A DNA stretch of 42,506 bases from Acidimicrobiaceae bacterium (GTDB lineage Bacteria > Actinomycetota > Acidimicrobiia > Acidimicrobiales > RAAP-2): positions 1 to 42,506 of the forward strand of contig PKYQ01000008.1 in NCBI GenBank assembly GCA_003133685.1, written 5' to 3'. Numbering within the stretch: position 1 is the first letter of the stretch; each line of letters starts with the position of its first letter. Below, one piece after another: positions 888 to 5,853 of the stretch. The notes under the pieces were generated by a model. That model was not told the DNA's origin. It made no database searches and worked only from the letters and a program-made list of their open reading frames with translations. Both the position numbers and the translations under genes were made by a program.

Positions 888-1068
888 CGTTCTGGGCTGA
901 GGTTGAAATACGTGCGACTTCGTCAACTAAACCTTCGGACTCCATCACGGTCTTTGGTTGCGCGCTGGTAGCGCAGTGCCGCACTCGCTGAAGCGTGCCC
1001 CGCACGGTGCATCGAGTTGTCCAGTGACATTCCCGCTCGATCACTGGATAACACTCGAAAACTTGGTG
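888..1068. other. Intergenic stretch with one inverted repeat
   Basis: No gene is supported here. An 8-bp perfect inverted repeat (TCCAGTGA at 1020-1027, TCACTGGA at 1041-1048, 13-nt spacer) lies about 20 bp outside the left end of the adjacent mobile element. It may be the remnant end of another insertion or a hairpin; no poly-T follows. Confidence 0.35.
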
Positions 1069-1069
1069 G

Positions 1070-1086
1070 GTTAGCGACAGAAGTCG
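1070..1086 (+). repeat. Left terminal inverted repeat
   Basis: This is a 17-bp perfect match to the reverse complement of 4041-4057. Its inner part, CGAC-AGAA-GTCG (1075-1086), is itself a small palindrome. Confidence 0.85.
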
Positions 1087-1164
1087 TTGATCAGCATCTA
1101 CGTGGGCACATGTGCACCGTGTTCCCACGGTCACGAGCGGATTGTCCCAGTCGCGAAAGACGGA

Positions 1165-1500
1165 CTATTTACTTGTCCGGCTTGACTCGAAGTCGGTGCT
1201 CGAGAGCGCTTCGAGCTCCTTTACCAATTCGCGAAGTCGACGGTGCGCGGCGAGCGCCGGTCGAAGTTGTTCGGCTTCTTCGTTGCTCAAGGTCGTCGTC
1301 ACTTGTCGACCGTTCACCTGGTGGCTCCAGGTCGGGTACGGACCGTGCAACACCGGCGGATCGGCTCGACAGTGACATCCCACGCCCGCGCAGCGCGTGG
1401 AGCGCTGCGAGAGCGTGCCCGCCACTACCGGCCCGCGCGTCAGGCGGTTGATCTCGGCGAGAATCACTCGGCGTCGCTCACTCGTCACCGTCACCAGCAT
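1165..1500 (-). CDS. Small Cys-containing protein of transposon (DUF6788-like)
   Basis: The product has 111 residues. A conserved-looking core has Cys37, Cys42 and Cys44 followed by RADPPVLHGPY, then a helical C-terminal half (LRELVKELEAL). This layout resembles a family I know as DUF6788, found next to transposase or integrase genes and of unknown function; the family assignment is from memory. Cys spacing suggests metal or nucleic-acid binding, which is inference. The ATG at 1500 is preceded by a weak G-rich site, and a TTGACA lies upstream on this strand (1530-1535) within a palindrome. It is transcribed divergently from the recombinase/transposase pair and lies inside the same inverted repeats, so it is probably an accessory or regulatory protein of the element. 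Confidence 0.65.
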   Translation of the reverse strand: MLVTVTSERRRVILAEINRLTRGPVVAGTLSQRSTRCAGVGCHCRADPPVLHGPYPTWSHQVNGRQVTTTLSNEEAEQLRPALAAHRRLRELVKELEALSSTDFESSRTSK

Positions 1501-1510
1501 CCCCCATCAC

Positions 1511-1540
1511 CTATCTTGATGATAATATATGTCAAGATAG
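1511..1540. promoter_or_regulatory. Palindromic operator/promoter region between divergent transposon genes
   Basis: CTATCTTGA (1511-1519) and TCAAGATAG (1532-1540) form a perfect 9-bp inverted repeat with a 12-nt AT-rich spacer, in an otherwise GC-rich element. It occupies nearly the whole gap between the minus-strand gene start (1500) and the plus-strand GTG start (1547). A TTGACA on the minus strand and TAATAT-like sequence on the plus strand suggest overlapping divergent promoters. Its position makes it a likely binding site for a protein of the element. Confidence 0.55.
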
Positions 1541-1546
1541 TTCTTA

Positions 1547-2323
1547 GTGGCCCTCGGTCAACGCGACGCCAGTGTGCTTCGACGCTTCGAGGAGTTCTGC
1601 GCACTGGAGGGACTCCGCGTCGATCGGGCTCTCGCCGACGCCCACGTCGTCGAGGCGTTCCTCACGATCAGCTGTTCGACACTGTGCGCGCACTCGCTCG
1701 GAACCTACCGCTCGACGCTGCGTCGTTTGGGTGGCGCTCCTCGCACGCCCCGCGCGTTCTCGGCCTCGCTCGCCCCCGCCCCTTACAGTGAACGCGACCT
1801 CGCGGCGCTGTGGTCGCGCGCGCGCAGCCAGGCCAGCGCCGCGCGAATCGCCAACGCCACCGTGCTGCTCGCGGCGATGGTGGGCGCGGGGCTTCGCCCG
1901 CGCGAGGTGGCTCACCTGCGTGCACCGGACGTTCTTCGCTCGAGGGGGCGAGTGAGGGTAAGGGTGCGCGGGAACCCCTCACGACTCGTGCCGGTCGAAG
2001 GTCGCGGCGCGAGCGTCCTCGTGGCGCTCGCCGAGGAACAACGCGACTATCTCTTTCGCCCGAACGCTCTTGTGCGCGACACAAAGAACCTCGTGGGTGA
2101 GATCGCCGCTTCACTCGCGGGCGACCCCGACGAGGTGGTGCTCTCGAGTGGACGTTGTCGTTCGACGTTTCTCTGTGCGCACCTCGCGAGCGACACCGCG
2201 CTACGCGAACTGTGCGCTCTCGCGGGACTCGGTGAAGTCGAGTCGCTGGCGCGTTACGCGCGCCACGTGGCGAGTGCGCCCCAGACGAAGGCCGAGCTGC
2301 GCGCTCGGGCGCGTCGGCGATGA
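1547..2323 (+). CDS. Degenerate tyrosine-recombinase-like protein of transposon
   Basis: The product has 258 residues and the organisation of a phage-integrase/XerD-type protein. Residues about 1-70 resemble the SAM-like DNA-binding arm (a helix pair plus the YRSTLRRLGG segment). A catalytic domain follows, with the first-box Arg117 in GAGLRPREVAHLR. The second box reads GRCRSTFLCAHL, so the HxxR Arg is kept (Arg205) but His is replaced by Gly202. The third-box His is not evident. Tyr237 in LARYARHV is in the place of the nucleophile. Either chemistry is altered or the protein serves for DNA binding or targeting. The GTG start at 1547 has no Shine-Dalgarno and lies 7 nt from the palindrome, suggesting a leaderless message. 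The stop overlaps the next gene's ATG (ATGA at 2320-2323), implying coupled translation. Confidence 0.7.
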   Translation: MALGQRDASVLRRFEEFCALEGLRVDRALADAHVVEAFLTISCSTLCAHSLGTYRSTLRRLGGAPRTPRAFSASLAPAPYSERDLAALWSRARSQASAARIANATVLLAAMVGAGLRPREVAHLRAPDVLRSRGRVRVRVRGNPSRLVPVEGRGASVLVALAEEQRDYLFRPNALVRDTKNLVGEIAASLAGDPDEVVLSSGRCRSTFLCAHLASDTALRELCALAGLGEVESLARYARHVASAPQTKAELRARARRR

Positions 2324-3927
2324 GCCGACGCGCGATTCCCAACGAGGAAGTGGCGCGTTGCCTCGCGCTCGTCGAACGCTCGGGGGTTGCCGAGTGGCTC
2401 GAGACTGAGATTGAGGCCCGTTACCGTCGCCCCGGGCGACCCCGCGAACTCTCCGTCGTGGCGTTGCTGACGGCACTGCTGCTGCTCGCCACCGACGATC
2501 GCGCGCTGCACCTCTCGGCCGTGACCGAGGTGCTGTTCTGCCGGCTCTCCGACGAGGCGAAGGCGACCCTGAGTGTTACCGGCGACGCCCAGGCTCAGCG
2601 TTCCTTCCTCGCGCGTTACCGCCAGGTGCGCTACCTCTTTCACGCGGTTACTTCGGTGCTCGACCCCTCGGGACTGCCGAAGAACCAGCGCCTGGGTGTC
2701 GAAGAGTTCGCGCGGCGTTGCGTCGAACTCGGCGACGACGAGGTGCGTGACGCGAGGGATCGCGTCGAGTCCTTTACCGGCGCGATGCTCTCGGCCAGCG
2801 TCGCCGAGTGCGAGCGACCATCACGTCTCGCCTACGGACTCGACGCCACGCCGGTGCCGCTCTTCTCGCGCGGACCGTCGAAACGCAGTGGCCTCTGCGC
2901 CACGGACCCCGACGGAGGATGGTACGTGCGCGAGGGCGACCACCGCGAGCGCGAAGACCACAAGGGTCGACGACGCAGCCGCGTCGCCTGGGCCCTGGAG
3001 GCGACACTGCTGACGACCGCGTCGCGCGAGCCCGGGAGTCTCGCTGCGTTCCCCAACCTCGTGGTCGGTCTCGCGCTGGATCGACCGGGCGTCGACCCCG
3101 GCGGCACGGCGCGACGAGTCTTAGCCGGGGCGCGCTCGCGCGGCTTCGCGCCGGGACCCCTCGGCGTCGACCGCGCCTACTCGGGCGCACTGAGTACGGT
3201 CTTTCACCTGCCGGCGCGCGCGATGGGCTTTGAGCTCGTGATCGACTACCGCGTCGACCAGCTCGGTCGCCAGGCGAACAGCCACGGCGCGGTCTTGGTC
3301 GAGGGCGCCTGGTACTGCCCGGCGATGCCCGAGGTGTTGGTGAGTGCGACGTTGGATCTGAGGAGCGGCGTCATCGACGCCGCCACCTATCGCCAGCGCA
3401 TCGAGGCGCGACGCGCCTACGCGCTGCGGCGCAAGTCCGGCCCTGACGCCGACGGCTACGAACGCTTCATGTGTCCGGCCCAAGGCGCACGTCCCAAGGT
3501 GCGCTGCCAGCTGCGCCCCTCCTCACTCGCGGTCCTCGGCGCGAGACCGGTCAACCCACCGGCGTCACCATCGCTGCTCTGTTCACAGCACGCCATCACC
3601 ATCGCGCCCGACGTGGCCGCGCGCCACGCCCAGTCCTTCGCTTACGGATCAGAGGAGTGGGCGCGCCACTACGCGACGCTGCGCAACACCATCGAAGGGT
3701 GGAACGGGTTCGTGAAGGACCCCGCGCACGAAGCGTTAGCCCAGCCGGCGCGACGCCGCGTGCGCGGCATCGCCGCCCAGAGCATCTTCGTCACGCTGCT
3801 AATCGTGGCGGCGAACCTGCGCAAGATCGATACCCACCATCACCAGATGATTCATCGTGACGAGCTCGAAGCGAGAAAACGCGCCCGCCGACGACGGGTA
3901 AGTCTGACGGACTACCTCGCCAGCTGA
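2320..3927 (+). CDS. DDE-type transposase
   Basis: The product has 535 residues. It looks like an RNase H-fold transposase of the IS4/IS1182-like kind: Asp175 in YGLDATPVP, Asp284 in GVDRAYSGA and Glu459 in RNTIEGWNGFVKD give a plausible DDE triad. The NTIEG.NG..K signature before the last helix is characteristic of this superfamily. The long 109- and 175-residue spacings imply an insertion domain before the Glu. A basic segment (KRARRRR) near the C-terminus could bind DNA. It presumably cuts and joins the ends of the surrounding element. It is translated by ATGA overlap from the recombinase-like gene, and codon use (very GC-rich, Arg-rich) matches that gene. No frameshift or stop interrupts it. 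The exact family is uncertain. Confidence 0.75.
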   Translation: MSRRAIPNEEVARCLALVERSGVAEWLETEIEARYRRPGRPRELSVVALLTALLLLATDDRALHLSAVTEVLFCRLSDEAKATLSVTGDAQAQRSFLARYRQVRYLFHAVTSVLDPSGLPKNQRLGVEEFARRCVELGDDEVRDARDRVESFTGAMLSASVAECERPSRLAYGLDATPVPLFSRGPSKRSGLCATDPDGGWYVREGDHREREDHKGRRRSRVAWALEATLLTTASREPGSLAAFPNLVVGLALDRPGVDPGGTARRVLAGARSRGFAPGPLGVDRAYSGALSTVFHLPARAMGFELVIDYRVDQLGRQANSHGAVLVEGAWYCPAMPEVLVSATLDLRSGVIDAATYRQRIEARRAYALRRKSGPDADGYERFMCPAQGARPKVRCQLRPSSLAVLGARPVNPPASPSLLCSQHAITIAPDVAARHAQSFAYGSEEWARHYATLRNTIEGWNGFVKDPAHEALAQPARRRVRGIAAQSIFVTLLIVAANLRKIDTHHHQMIHRDELEARKRARRRRVSLTDYLAS

Positions 3928-4016
3928 CGTCGTTCACGAGAATCACCGTCAGAACTACAGACGTCGAGTCACCCGATGACAAACGCGCATGTCAGCGTGA
4001 TGGCACACCGTTACAA

Positions 4017-4030
4017 CCGACTTTTGTCGG
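4017..4030. repeat. Subterminal palindrome of the transposon
   Basis: CCGAC-TTTT-GTCGG is a perfect 5-bp stem with a 4-nt loop, 10 bp inside the right terminal repeat. It repeats the CGAC-N4-GTCG core found within both terminal repeats, so the right end has two copies of a probable protein-binding motif. Confidence 0.6.
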
Positions 4031-4040
4031 TGCAGTCAGC

Positions 4041-4057
4041 CGACTTCTGTCGCTAAC
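4041..4057 (-). repeat. Right terminal inverted repeat
   Basis: Reverse complement of 1070-1086, 17 of 17 bases. Three bases separate it from the tRNA-Leu CCA end at 4061-4063. Confidence 0.85.
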
Positions 4058-4060
4058 TTT

Positions 4061-4147
4061 TGGTGTCGAAGGCGGGACTTGAACCCGCACGCTCCTAAGA
4101 GCACCAGCCCCTCAAGCTGGCGCGTCTGCCTATTCCGCCACTCCGAC
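4061..4147 (-). tRNA. tRNA-Leu (anticodon GAG), CCA encoded
   Basis: The minus strand folds into a class II tRNA. The acceptor is GUCGGAG paired with CUUCGAC, followed by discriminator A and genomic CCA. The anticodon arm is CCAGC-UUGAGGG-GCUGG, giving anticodon GAG (reads CUC/CUU Leu). A long variable arm (GCUCUUAGGAGC) and T-arm CGGGUUCAAGUCCCG follow. It lies directly beyond the transposon's right end and downstream of no other stable RNA. Confidence 0.95.
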
Positions 4148-4191
4148 GCGAAGTTCTACTTTAGCCGCTACCTACCAAGCGCTTCTCCAAC

Positions 4192-5853
4192 TCAACCCGA
4201 CGTTGTCGGTGGCGTAACTGTCCAATTCGGCACTTCGTCGAGCAGGCCCGGTACGGAGAAACTCGTGGTGACGCCGGTCAGCGTGTTGGTCCACGCTAAG
4301 AGAGACGGCGACGTGAAGAGCGGTCGTACCCAATACGAACTCTGAATCTTCTGGTCCATCTGCAGCCACGTGGAGGAGGCGGTCACCGGATTGAAGTTGG
4401 CGATCGCTTGATTGAACAACGCGGTCACTGCCACGGCGCGCCATCCACTGGGATAGGCGTCGGCGTAACCCGGGCCGCTCCACGACCTCGCCGCGTAGGA
4501 GACTGCGGTAATCGTCGGTCGGGTGAATAACGCCATGTCGTCGCTATTGGTCGCCGTCGCGACGGCGGCCGCCACGTCACTGCGCATCTCATCGATGTTC
4601 ACTTTGATGCCGATTGATGCCCACTCGGCAACGACGGCGGAGGCAACCGTGTGATCGAGGTCACTGGGCCCGACCGCCATTCGCAACACGAGCGGCGTTC
4701 CCGACGGCGTCGTCCAGCCGGACTTCAGGTGCACGAATCCGCTCTGTGACAAGACGTCGAGCGCGCACTGCAGGCAGTCGCCCAGACCGTTGTGCGAGGT
4801 ACCCGGCGCCAGGGTCGTCGTGGTGGTCTGAGCCGACGGTGACGTTCCGGCCGGCCCGGGATAGTTCGATTGGCCTTGGGAGTACAGCGCGGAGGCCGCG
4901 ACCGACGGCGAGAACGTCACCGCGCCCCAGAGTTGATCGACCAGTGACTGGCGGTTTATCGACCAACTCAGCGCCTCGCGCACGACGATTCGCCTGATCA
5001 GCGGTCGCGTTGACGCGAACGAGATCTCTTCGATGTCACTCGAAGTCCCGATGTGACTCATCACGTTGGGGCGTGCGCTGATGGCCTGGACCAGCGCACG
5101 GTTGACCACGAAGGACAAGTTGACGAAGTTCGCGTTCACCGACGTGGGCATCGCCGCGGCGTCGGTGATCACGATTCGACCGAAGCGATCGGTGTCGATG
5201 GGCCAGTGTTTGTTCATCGTCAACACAACGCGATTCGGCGTCGCACTGGTAACCGCGTACGGGCCGAGGGTCGGTCGCGCGAGCAATGACGAGAGTGAAC
5301 AGCCGCCCTGGGTGCCGAGCGCTTCGACGTCGCGGAACAAGAGGTTCCAGTCGGCGTAGGGGGTGTCGAAGACGGCCGTCACGACGTCGCCGTCCTTGGA
5401 GACCGAGAGCGTCTTGATGTCGCGGTAGCCGTCGCTCAGAACCGTCTTCACGGCCCGGGCGCGAAGCCACCAGCCCAGAAGGTTGTTGCCATTGAAGGCG
5501 GTGCCGTTACTCCACTTCTCGTTCGGCGTGATGGTGTAGCGCACCGTCTCGGGCGTCAACGACGTCAATTCGGCCGACGCGATGGGACCGTTCTCGCCGT
5601 AGAGGCTGCCGGCACTCGTCGTGAGGAAGGCCGACGGGACGATGAGGTCATTGACCGCCTCGGACGTCGGCGTCGCCCCGGCGTCGAGGAAGGTGCAACC
5701 GTTGAACGGTCCCGGGAGCGAGACGTTGATCGTCTTGGCGTTCAGCGAATTGGCCTTGGCCGGCACGGCGCCGGAACGGCCAAAGGGAATGAGCACCGCG
5801 GCAACGATCAGGGCGAGAATCGCGCCCCGCCCGATTGATCCTCGCCGGACCAT
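4192..5853 (-). CDS. Extracellular solute-binding protein family 5 (peptide/nickel-type ABC importer)
   Basis: The product has 553 residues. A basic N-terminus and hydrophobic stretch (about residues 8-24) followed by an Ala-rich AxA region give a Sec signal peptide. There is no lipobox Cys at the cleavage site, unlike most Gram-positive binding proteins. The mature part has family 5 traits: YTITPNEKWSNGTAFNG near 108, the VREALSWSINRQSLV segment, and a Thr-rich linker around 340-350. Family members bind oligopeptides, dipeptides or nickel and hand them to OppBC/DppBC-type permeases. The ATG is 4 nt after the secG stop, so it is cotranscribed with the glycolytic genes. No permease adjoins it; the importer at 17696-21507 lacks a binding protein and is the obvious partner (inference). 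Substrate unknown. Confidence 0.8.
   Translation of the reverse strand: MVRRGSIGRGAILALIVAAVLIPFGRSGAVPAKANSLNAKTINVSLPGPFNGCTFLDAGATPTSEAVNDLIVPSAFLTTSAGSLYGENGPIASAELTSLTPETVRYTITPNEKWSNGTAFNGNNLLGWWLRARAVKTVLSDGYRDIKTLSVSKDGDVVTAVFDTPYADWNLLFRDVEALGTQGGCSLSSLLARPTLGPYAVTSATPNRVVLTMNKHWPIDTDRFGRIVITDAAAMPTSVNANFVNLSFVVNRALVQAISARPNVMSHIGTSSDIEEISFASTRPLIRRIVVREALSWSINRQSLVDQLWGAVTFSPSVAASALYSQGQSNYPGPAGTSPSAQTTTTTLAPGTSHNGLGDCLQCALDVLSQSGFVHLKSGWTTPSGTPLVLRMAVGPSDLDHTVASAVVAEWASIGIKVNIDEMRSDVAAAVATATNSDDMALFTRPTITAVSYAARSWSGPGYADAYPSGWRAVAVTALFNQAIANFNPVTASSTWLQMDQKIQSSYWVRPLFTSPSLLAWTNTLTGVTTSFSVPGLLDEVPNWTVTPPTTSG

Follow-up and report, generated by a model that had tools for sequence, protein, structure and literature searches.

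The window analyzed here is the full 42,506-nucleotide stretch of contig PKYQ01000008.1 of an Acidimicrobiaceae bacterium (GenBank assembly GCA_003133685.1); it is contig C14 of a 2.5-Mb genome assembly in 33 contigs. Near its left edge lies a compact element in which a predicted DDE transposase (TNP) is preceded by a protein of the tyrosine-recombinase fold (TR) and by a divergently transcribed small cysteine protein (Table 1). A preliminary description, made from the sequence alone, had reported the three genes, an overlap of TR with TNP, and a perfect 17-bp inverted repeat (1070–1086 and 4041–4057) enclosing them, and we found all of these where it had placed them. The stop codon of TR and the ATG of TNP share the sequence ATGA (2320–2323), and the outer copy of the repeated motif at the right end falls inside the inverted-repeat arm. 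The limits of the element lie slightly outside the repeat, because TTGGT stands both directly left of GGGTTAGCG and directly after CGCTAACTT; these flanking 5-bp duplications set the span to 1068–4059 (2,992 bp). The right end abuts the CCA of a transfer RNA (tRNA) gene, tRNA-Leu(gag). Neither this neighbor nor insertion at tRNA 3' ends had figured in the preliminary description.

Table 1. Features of the element and its target in the window.
Feature	Position	Strand	Basis or remark
Left copy of the 5-bp target-site duplication, TTGGT	1063..1067	.	Sequence; register from left-end scan
Left end, GGGTTAGCGACAGAAGTCGTTGATCAGC	1068..1095	+	17-bp inverted-repeat arm at 1070–1086
DUF6788 small cysteine protein, 111 residues, divergent	1165..1500	-	Pfam DUF6788, E 5e-22
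9-bp inverted repeat, CTATCTTGA-12 nt-TCAAGATAG, in AT-rich gap between the divergent genes	1511..1540	.	
Tyrosine-recombinase-fold protein (TR), 258 residues	1547..2323	+	Sub-threshold Phage_integrase match
DDE transposase (TNP), 535 residues; D175, D284, E459; conserved C385, C396, C421	2320..3927	+	
Right end, two CGACARAAGTCG motif copies 23 bp apart (4018–4029, 4041–4052)	4018..4059	-	
Right copy of the duplication, TTGGT (tRNA base 73, CCA and the next base, on the opposite strand)	4060..4064	.	
Target tRNA-Leu(gag), intact after insertion	4061..4147	-	ARAGORN; Rfam tRNA

Relatives of TNP were collected from 198 genomes of the class (14 matched), from species-representative contigs (28 loci) and from 99 genomes of the genus (32 matched). 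The genome, class, species-representative and genus sets held 64 unique transposase loci once duplicates had been removed, and 54 of these were testable for a tRNA, that is, they contained the C-terminal end of TNP and at least 400 nt downstream of it. Left out before counting were L003, L017, L019, L020 and L021 (same places as other loci), L016 (without TNP), L023 and L090–L094 (duplicates), L189 (same as L035), and those places of a later profile search that had already been seen. That search covered 396 genomes of the phylum and gave 18 matches at E ≤ 1e-20. Two sets were gathered after the hypothesis had been formed: 11 new loci from the phylum search, and 12 places from the genus search, 7 of them testable. 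Four loci of the first set (L027, L029, L042 and L096) fell outside the tRNA rule, L027 and L096 of these nonetheless showing a tRNA; five of the last set (L212, L218, L219, L220 and L221) did likewise, L212, L218 and L220 showing the start of a tRNA and L221 being decayed. Family members were found in Actinomycetota, including Streptomyces relatives, and no relative was found in viral contigs.

A complete convergent gene for a tRNA or for transfer-messenger RNA (tmRNA) stood 167–372 bp after the transposase domain in 39 of the 54 testable relatives, and a same-strand tRNA or tmRNA within 700 bases was seen in none of the 54. The control, open reading frames of at least 250 codons in the same sequences, gave a convergent tRNA within 700 bases for 5 of 348. 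The 39 target genes are of 11 kinds: tRNA-Leu (17), Ser (7), Met, Gly and Ile (3 each), and Glu, Tyr, Pro, Arg, Val and tmRNA (one each). Seven of the 15 remaining relatives carry a truncated tRNA at the right end. These were spotted by eye and then checked by BLAST against whole tRNAs (L034 gave no match); Rfam at its gathering score misses such truncated genes. Six of them (L002, L008, L012, L026, L030 and L106) matched over 38–50 tRNA bases, starting at tRNA positions 24–35, and the match in L041 spans just 22 bases. In three further loci (L099, L103 and L111) the right end is followed by 5 bases and then by the apparent left end of a further element; for L099, in genome G247, a tRNA-Ile lies about 2 kb beyond. 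The sets gathered later gave a tRNA or tmRNA behind TNP in 7 of 11 phylum-search loci and a tRNA in 5 of 7 genus-search loci (tRNA-Ile 2, Ser 2, Arg 1), or 12 of 18 when pooled.

Some of these targets are of note in themselves. The tmRNA 3' ends used as sites are at L007 (2585–2945) and L207 (oriented 1237–1636). The targets of the six loci with 38–50 matched bases are tRNA 3' halves that start in or near the anticodon arm; these may be leftovers of island or phage integrases, and the element may then mark the far ends of such integrase islands. The succession of a right end, 5 bp and an apparent left end in L099, L103, L111 and also L221 looks like repeated insertion at one tRNA end, leading to tandem arrays.

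The catalytic residues proposed for TNP in the preliminary description (Asp175, Asp284 and Glu459) are invariant in an alignment of 27 relatives, as are the three cysteines and Q438; in a wider automatic set that includes decayed copies, the three triad positions were kept in 42/44, 47/47 and 46/46. DDE families of Pfam and NCBIfam matched the protein weakly. Its predicted structure, with a predicted local distance difference test (pLDDT) score of 87.9, has Tn5 transposase as the nearest solved fold (E 6.9e-4). The nearest named transposase family is IS1182, whose NCBIfam model matched 11 of the 27 relatives (best E 5.2e-16); the window protein scored 15.3 bits against a cut-off of 270, far below membership, and a tyrosine-recombinase partner is not known to be part of IS1182. 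In Pfam and NCBIfam at E ≤ 1, TNP matched no Tn3 model, and none of the three proteins of the element matched Tns families. Profile searches of Pfam, NCBIfam, PHROGs and PDB yielded no membership in a known family, in agreement with the earlier statement that the element could not be placed in a named one. With its triad, terminal inverted repeats and short target duplication, the element has the hallmarks of a DDE transposon.

The tyrosine-recombinase fold of TR is supported by its Phage_integrase match (E 4.8e-5, 23.6 bits versus the curated cut-off of 27.1), by profile matches to XerC-like, XerA and XerD structures (best 3.7e-14) and by a predicted model (pLDDT 91.7) that matches XerA, Cre, XerH and IntI4. 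A complete set of the catalytic positions examined (Arg, His, Arg, His/Trp and Tyr) was not found in it. Among 41 aligned full-length TR proteins, the window's included, the catalytic His position never holds His, the second position holds neither His nor Trp, Arg I is present in 14, Arg II in all 41 and Tyr in 22. Because both catalytic His positions are lost throughout and Tyr is lost in 19 of the 41, TR is probably not a working recombinase, and the earlier idea of two recombination chemistries in one unit is not borne out. The pairing is. TR immediately precedes TNP in 40 of the 44 testable relatives, and in the sets gathered later it was beside TNP wherever the upstream DNA sufficed (4/4 and 7/7, together 11/11). 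Distances among TR proteins correlate with those among TNP proteins (r = 0.90 for 34 pairs; permutation maximum 0.19), and the correlation was 0.905 for the 27 pairs left without L033–L044 and L048. The two proteins thus co-occur as a coupled pair in a compact mobile unit, as had been proposed. In Corynebacterium gallinarum (L046, at tRNA-Pro), two TR-like genes (2218–3246 and 3422–4894) precede one TNP.

Left ends were located in 11 elements. In the clade of short elements the left end lies 1,263–1,345 bases before the transposase domain and matches the right end, and DUF6788 is present in every such element with a located left end except L024. In most relatives the right end has a CGACARAAGT-like motif in two copies, spaced about 22–23 bases apart. 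The 5-bp flanks are identical in 7 of the 11 elements (window, L002, L022, L030, G264, G071a and G063) and alike at 4 of 5 bases in two more (L024 and L026). L022 has TTGGC on both sides, in the same register as the window, and the last base of the duplication varies with the tRNA (TTGGT, TTGGA, TTGGC). Three of the 11 are larger elements: G264 (about 9.6 kb, at tRNA-Ile), G071a (about 12.2 kb, at tRNA-Met) and G063 (about 6.6 kb, at tRNA-Ser). Their left ends ranked first by the inverted repeat alone, with 16, 14 and 15 of 18 positions (next-best 12, 12 and 11), and their left-end scores of 21, 19 and 20 compare with 18.5, 17 and 18.5 for the best of 41 controls each; the candidates in G071b, G114, G084 and G208 did not rise above controls. 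The preliminary description had asked whether the same ends bound each copy, and had held that transposases regularly lacking the partner and bounded by different ends would speak against the unit. The partner is kept, and the short copies have related ends. Longer relatives and those from Streptomyces have ends of different sequence or yielded none.

Sister genomes have empty sites for G071a. Its two flanks, joined through a single TTGGT, are found unbroken in G300 and G298 at 85% and 87% identity, respectively; G295, G292, G304, G308, G309, G307 and G306 have less similar versions of this junction. In an alignment of seven sister genomes, the tRNA-Met runs directly into the homologue of the G071 sequence beyond the element. 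These empty sites establish the insertion point and the duplication for G071a. A short copy of the tRNA-Met 3' end stands upstream of the G071a left end (L131, 8966–8984), and similar sequence is present in sister genomes without the element.

One further copy (L002) is present in the host genome, at the start of contig C26, with 84% identity over 2,989 bp. Contig C12 starts with the reverse complement of the first 22 bases of this copy, followed by flank, from which we infer that C12 and C26 join into one locus. After this join, the copy has TTGGA on both sides in the same register as the window, and to its right lies a tRNA-Gly 3' half that is 97% identical to a whole tRNA-Gly across 38 bases. 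The 17-bp inverted repeat is not a matter of chance, since the same ends bound this second copy and, in varied form, short relatives elsewhere. In L002, TR and TNP form one open frame of 797 codons (457–2847), apparently owing to a small indel beyond the TR core; this is apparently either a natural fusion or an assembly error. Arms similar to the 9-bp inverted repeat between the divergent genes, a possible operator or promoter region, are present in L002, and a repeat of this kind was not found in L022, L024, L025 and L028.

The larger relatives carry cargo. Between its left end and TR, G071a has a type I restriction subunit and a frame resembling a specificity subunit; G063 carries an EcoRI-type methylase, a GmrSD/HNH nuclease and an AbiD protein; G264 has a PADLOC candidate (PDC-M32A) and a PD-(D/E)XK-like match; and G114, whose left end was not established, has an OLD/AAA-like ATPase. 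Ten frames were scanned per library, eleven different frames in all, and no defense match was obtained for three of the eleven (L127:15912-17264, L131:9200-9931 and L131:10624-11706, the last against Pfam only). Because the frames were picked after reading their translations, the matches demonstrate the presence of defense genes and not their frequency.

Taken together, we consider it probable that these loci form a family of Actinomycetota DDE transposons that target tRNA and tmRNA genes at their 3' ends, with TR as the target selector. The two parts of this reading differ in strength: judged from the sequences, it is nearly certain that a DDE element homes to tRNA ends, and the role of TR as selector, by analogy, is likely but unproven. 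According to this model, TNP would cut and join the element at its inverted-repeat ends, as the invariant DDE triad suggests, and its staggered cut of the target, 5 bp wide, would span tRNA base 73, CCA and the base that follows. The sequence itself shows the insertion point, the duplication and the intact tRNA; the element thus lies in a safe place. The exact base 73–CCA register in different and in truncated tRNAs points to recognition of the tRNA gene's 3' half. Active tyrosine recombinases often use this half as their attachment site. TR, a former tyrosine recombinase without the catalytic set, most likely binds the 3' half, that is, the T-arm and acceptor, which is all that the truncated targets share, and would recruit TNP to the tRNA 3' end. 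Given the target habit of the fold, the retention of TR beside TNP and its lost catalysis, target selection is the simplest reading of its role. DUF6788 may, at a guess, regulate the divergent operon, and the larger relatives would carry restriction and abortive-infection genes by the same machinery. We lean, by a narrow measure, toward the broader proposal of a new DDE family with a single TNP, without AAA+ ATPase or TniQ, directed by a dead TR and spreading antiphage genes between tRNA loci.

Several observations weigh against this interpretation. The 5-bp flanks of L028 and L029 do not match (2 of the 11 elements), and the Tn5 fold match of TNP is weak (TM-score 0.29). No tRNA sequence was recognized in 5 of the 54 testable relatives (L034, L049, L107, L108 and L109), in 4 of the 11 phylum-search loci (L197, L199, L201 and L202) or in 2 of the 7 genus-search loci (L210 and L213). 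The Streptomyces relatives share one site, tRNA-Leu(cag), and their counts are therefore not independent events. A scan of about 4 kb before TR did not turn up their left ends, and neither did a pattern search, in which the matches listed were mostly scattered and chance-like; because no left end was found, these relatives may be immobile. No empty site was found for the window insertion: the region right of its tRNA-Leu is found in relatives, its left flank was unmatched in the 19 loci examined, and that flank matches elsewhere solely through an 80-bp repeat. Nor was a contiguous empty site found for L022; in G246, the element is missing and about 540 bp separate its two flanks, and no inverted-repeat remnant of the L022 kind was seen there. 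TR was not found beside L004, L043, L047 and L049 (4 of 44); the last three are N-terminally truncated TNPs, and L004 (G114) has a whole TNP at a tRNA-Leu with no TR detected, where TNP might find its target alone or TR might have been lost later. Finally, the clade of the window retains Arg I, Arg II and the Tyr position of TR.

The case of L004 bears on an alternative in which TNP alone recognizes tRNA 3' ends and TR binds the element ends or has a regulatory role; the repeated right-end motifs could then serve as TR sites. We regard this as unlikely, given that TR is kept beside TNP in 40/44 and 11/11 relatives and diverges in step with it, and that TnsF offers a precedent for a selector of this fold. 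The residues retained in the clade of the window would suit another model, in which an active TR integrates a circular form at tRNA 3' ends, the repeat being the crossover overlap and the DDE protein an accessory; tRNA 3' ends are classic integrase sites, and joining the ends of the element would place inverted arms around a short spacer. The catalytic His positions are nevertheless lost in 41/41 and Tyr in 19/41, the DDE triad is invariant among 27, and the repeat measures 5 bp, keeps a fixed register with the inverted ends and changes its last base with the tRNA, as a transposase duplication would, all of which leaves this model improbable. The direct repeats had been considered as an integrase crossover core, and this was dropped in view of the 5-bp register with inverted ends and the lost catalytic residues of TR. 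A role of TR as a cointegrate resolvase, like TnpI and TnpS of some Tn3-family transposons, would account for a DDE transposase and a tyrosine-recombinase fold in one unit with a 5-bp duplication, but, judged from the degenerate catalytic positions of TR, it is very unlikely. Chance or ascertainment, if elements of any sort tended to collect near tRNA genes and the relatives had inherited the site, would fit the many Streptomyces relatives at one tRNA-Leu(cag) and is negligible in the face of 11 tRNA and tmRNA kinds, the exact base 73–CCA register in the short clade, constant orientation, controls at 5/348 and the use of truncated tRNA 3' halves as further sites.

The proposed homing of a DDE element by a dead TR can be set beside known systems. 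In the Tn3 family, Tn4430 and Tn4651 make a 5-bp duplication, are not known to home to tRNA, and encode active recombinases (TnpI and TnpS, respectively) that resolve cointegrates; the present element shares the pairing of the two folds and the duplication, and differs in the degenerate catalytic set of TR and in its location at a tRNA. Integrases of phages and genomic islands at tRNA 3' ends have active residues and leave direct repeats from strand exchange, and archaeal cases are reportedly on record; the TR fold and the location are alike, whereas our element has a transposase duplication with inverted ends. A closer parallel is TnsF of Tn6022, which PMC10293859 describes as an inactivated tyrosine recombinase; it has zinc fingers at its N-terminus and a partial catalytic domain, binds comM and is required for transposition. 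As in that paper's account of Tn6022/TnsF and of Tsy, a DDE transposon with a target duplication would be joined here to an inactivated tyrosine-recombinase-fold selector of one conserved site, the selector role in our element being by analogy. Compared with Tn6022, the short form consists of TNP, TR and DUF6788, no AAA+ ATPase or TniQ was found in it, and its target is a tRNA or tmRNA 3' end; compared with TnsF as described there, the 258-residue TR of the window shows the recombinase domains alone. The same paper describes CyCAST, a type I-D CRISPR-associated Tn7-like system, in which TnsD directs insertion 30–33 nt downstream of tRNA-Leu. Protein-guided homing beside a tRNA gene, as we propose it, would be common to both, and our element, unlike CyCAST as reported there, inserts exactly at base 73–CCA. 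It shares with Tn7-like elements a 5-bp duplication at one conserved type of site; a TnsB-type transposase, TnsC and TniQ/TnsD were not found in Pfam and NCBIfam at E ≤ 1. Because the ATPase and TniQ are absent, the element is not Tn7-like, though it would work like Tn6022/TnsF. No description of the TNP–TR pair was found in the literature, preprints and ISfinder lying outside the search.

If the proposed role of TR is correct, two-protein insertion beside the CCA of many tRNAs, which as a target is both universal and harmless, would be a much simpler form of site-specific transposition. Programmed or site-specific insertion by DDE transposases is known mainly from multi-protein Tn7-like systems. 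The two-protein pair would further show an integrase turning into a targeting subunit, would mean that TnsF-like target selection arose independently of Tn7, and would attribute some defense-gene islands at tRNA genes to a transposase and not to an integrase.

Three features lie left of the element in the window. The dispersed repeat of about 80 bp mentioned above (939–1019) forms a long hairpin and recurs at G000:C1:116836-116914; 15 other genomes of the genus have it too. Nine copies were checked and had no tRNA nearby, but a match to the tRNA-Glu region lies some 140 bp from the C1 copy. Directly left of the element, 429–887 encodes a CHAP-domain protein (PF05257, E 1.2e-11). Further left, the frame at 101–388 matches the N-terminal fragment of an IS110-family transposase (PF01548, E 4.3e-8) and continues into a GACCAC repeat tract; it is probably a broken element or a hybrid gene.

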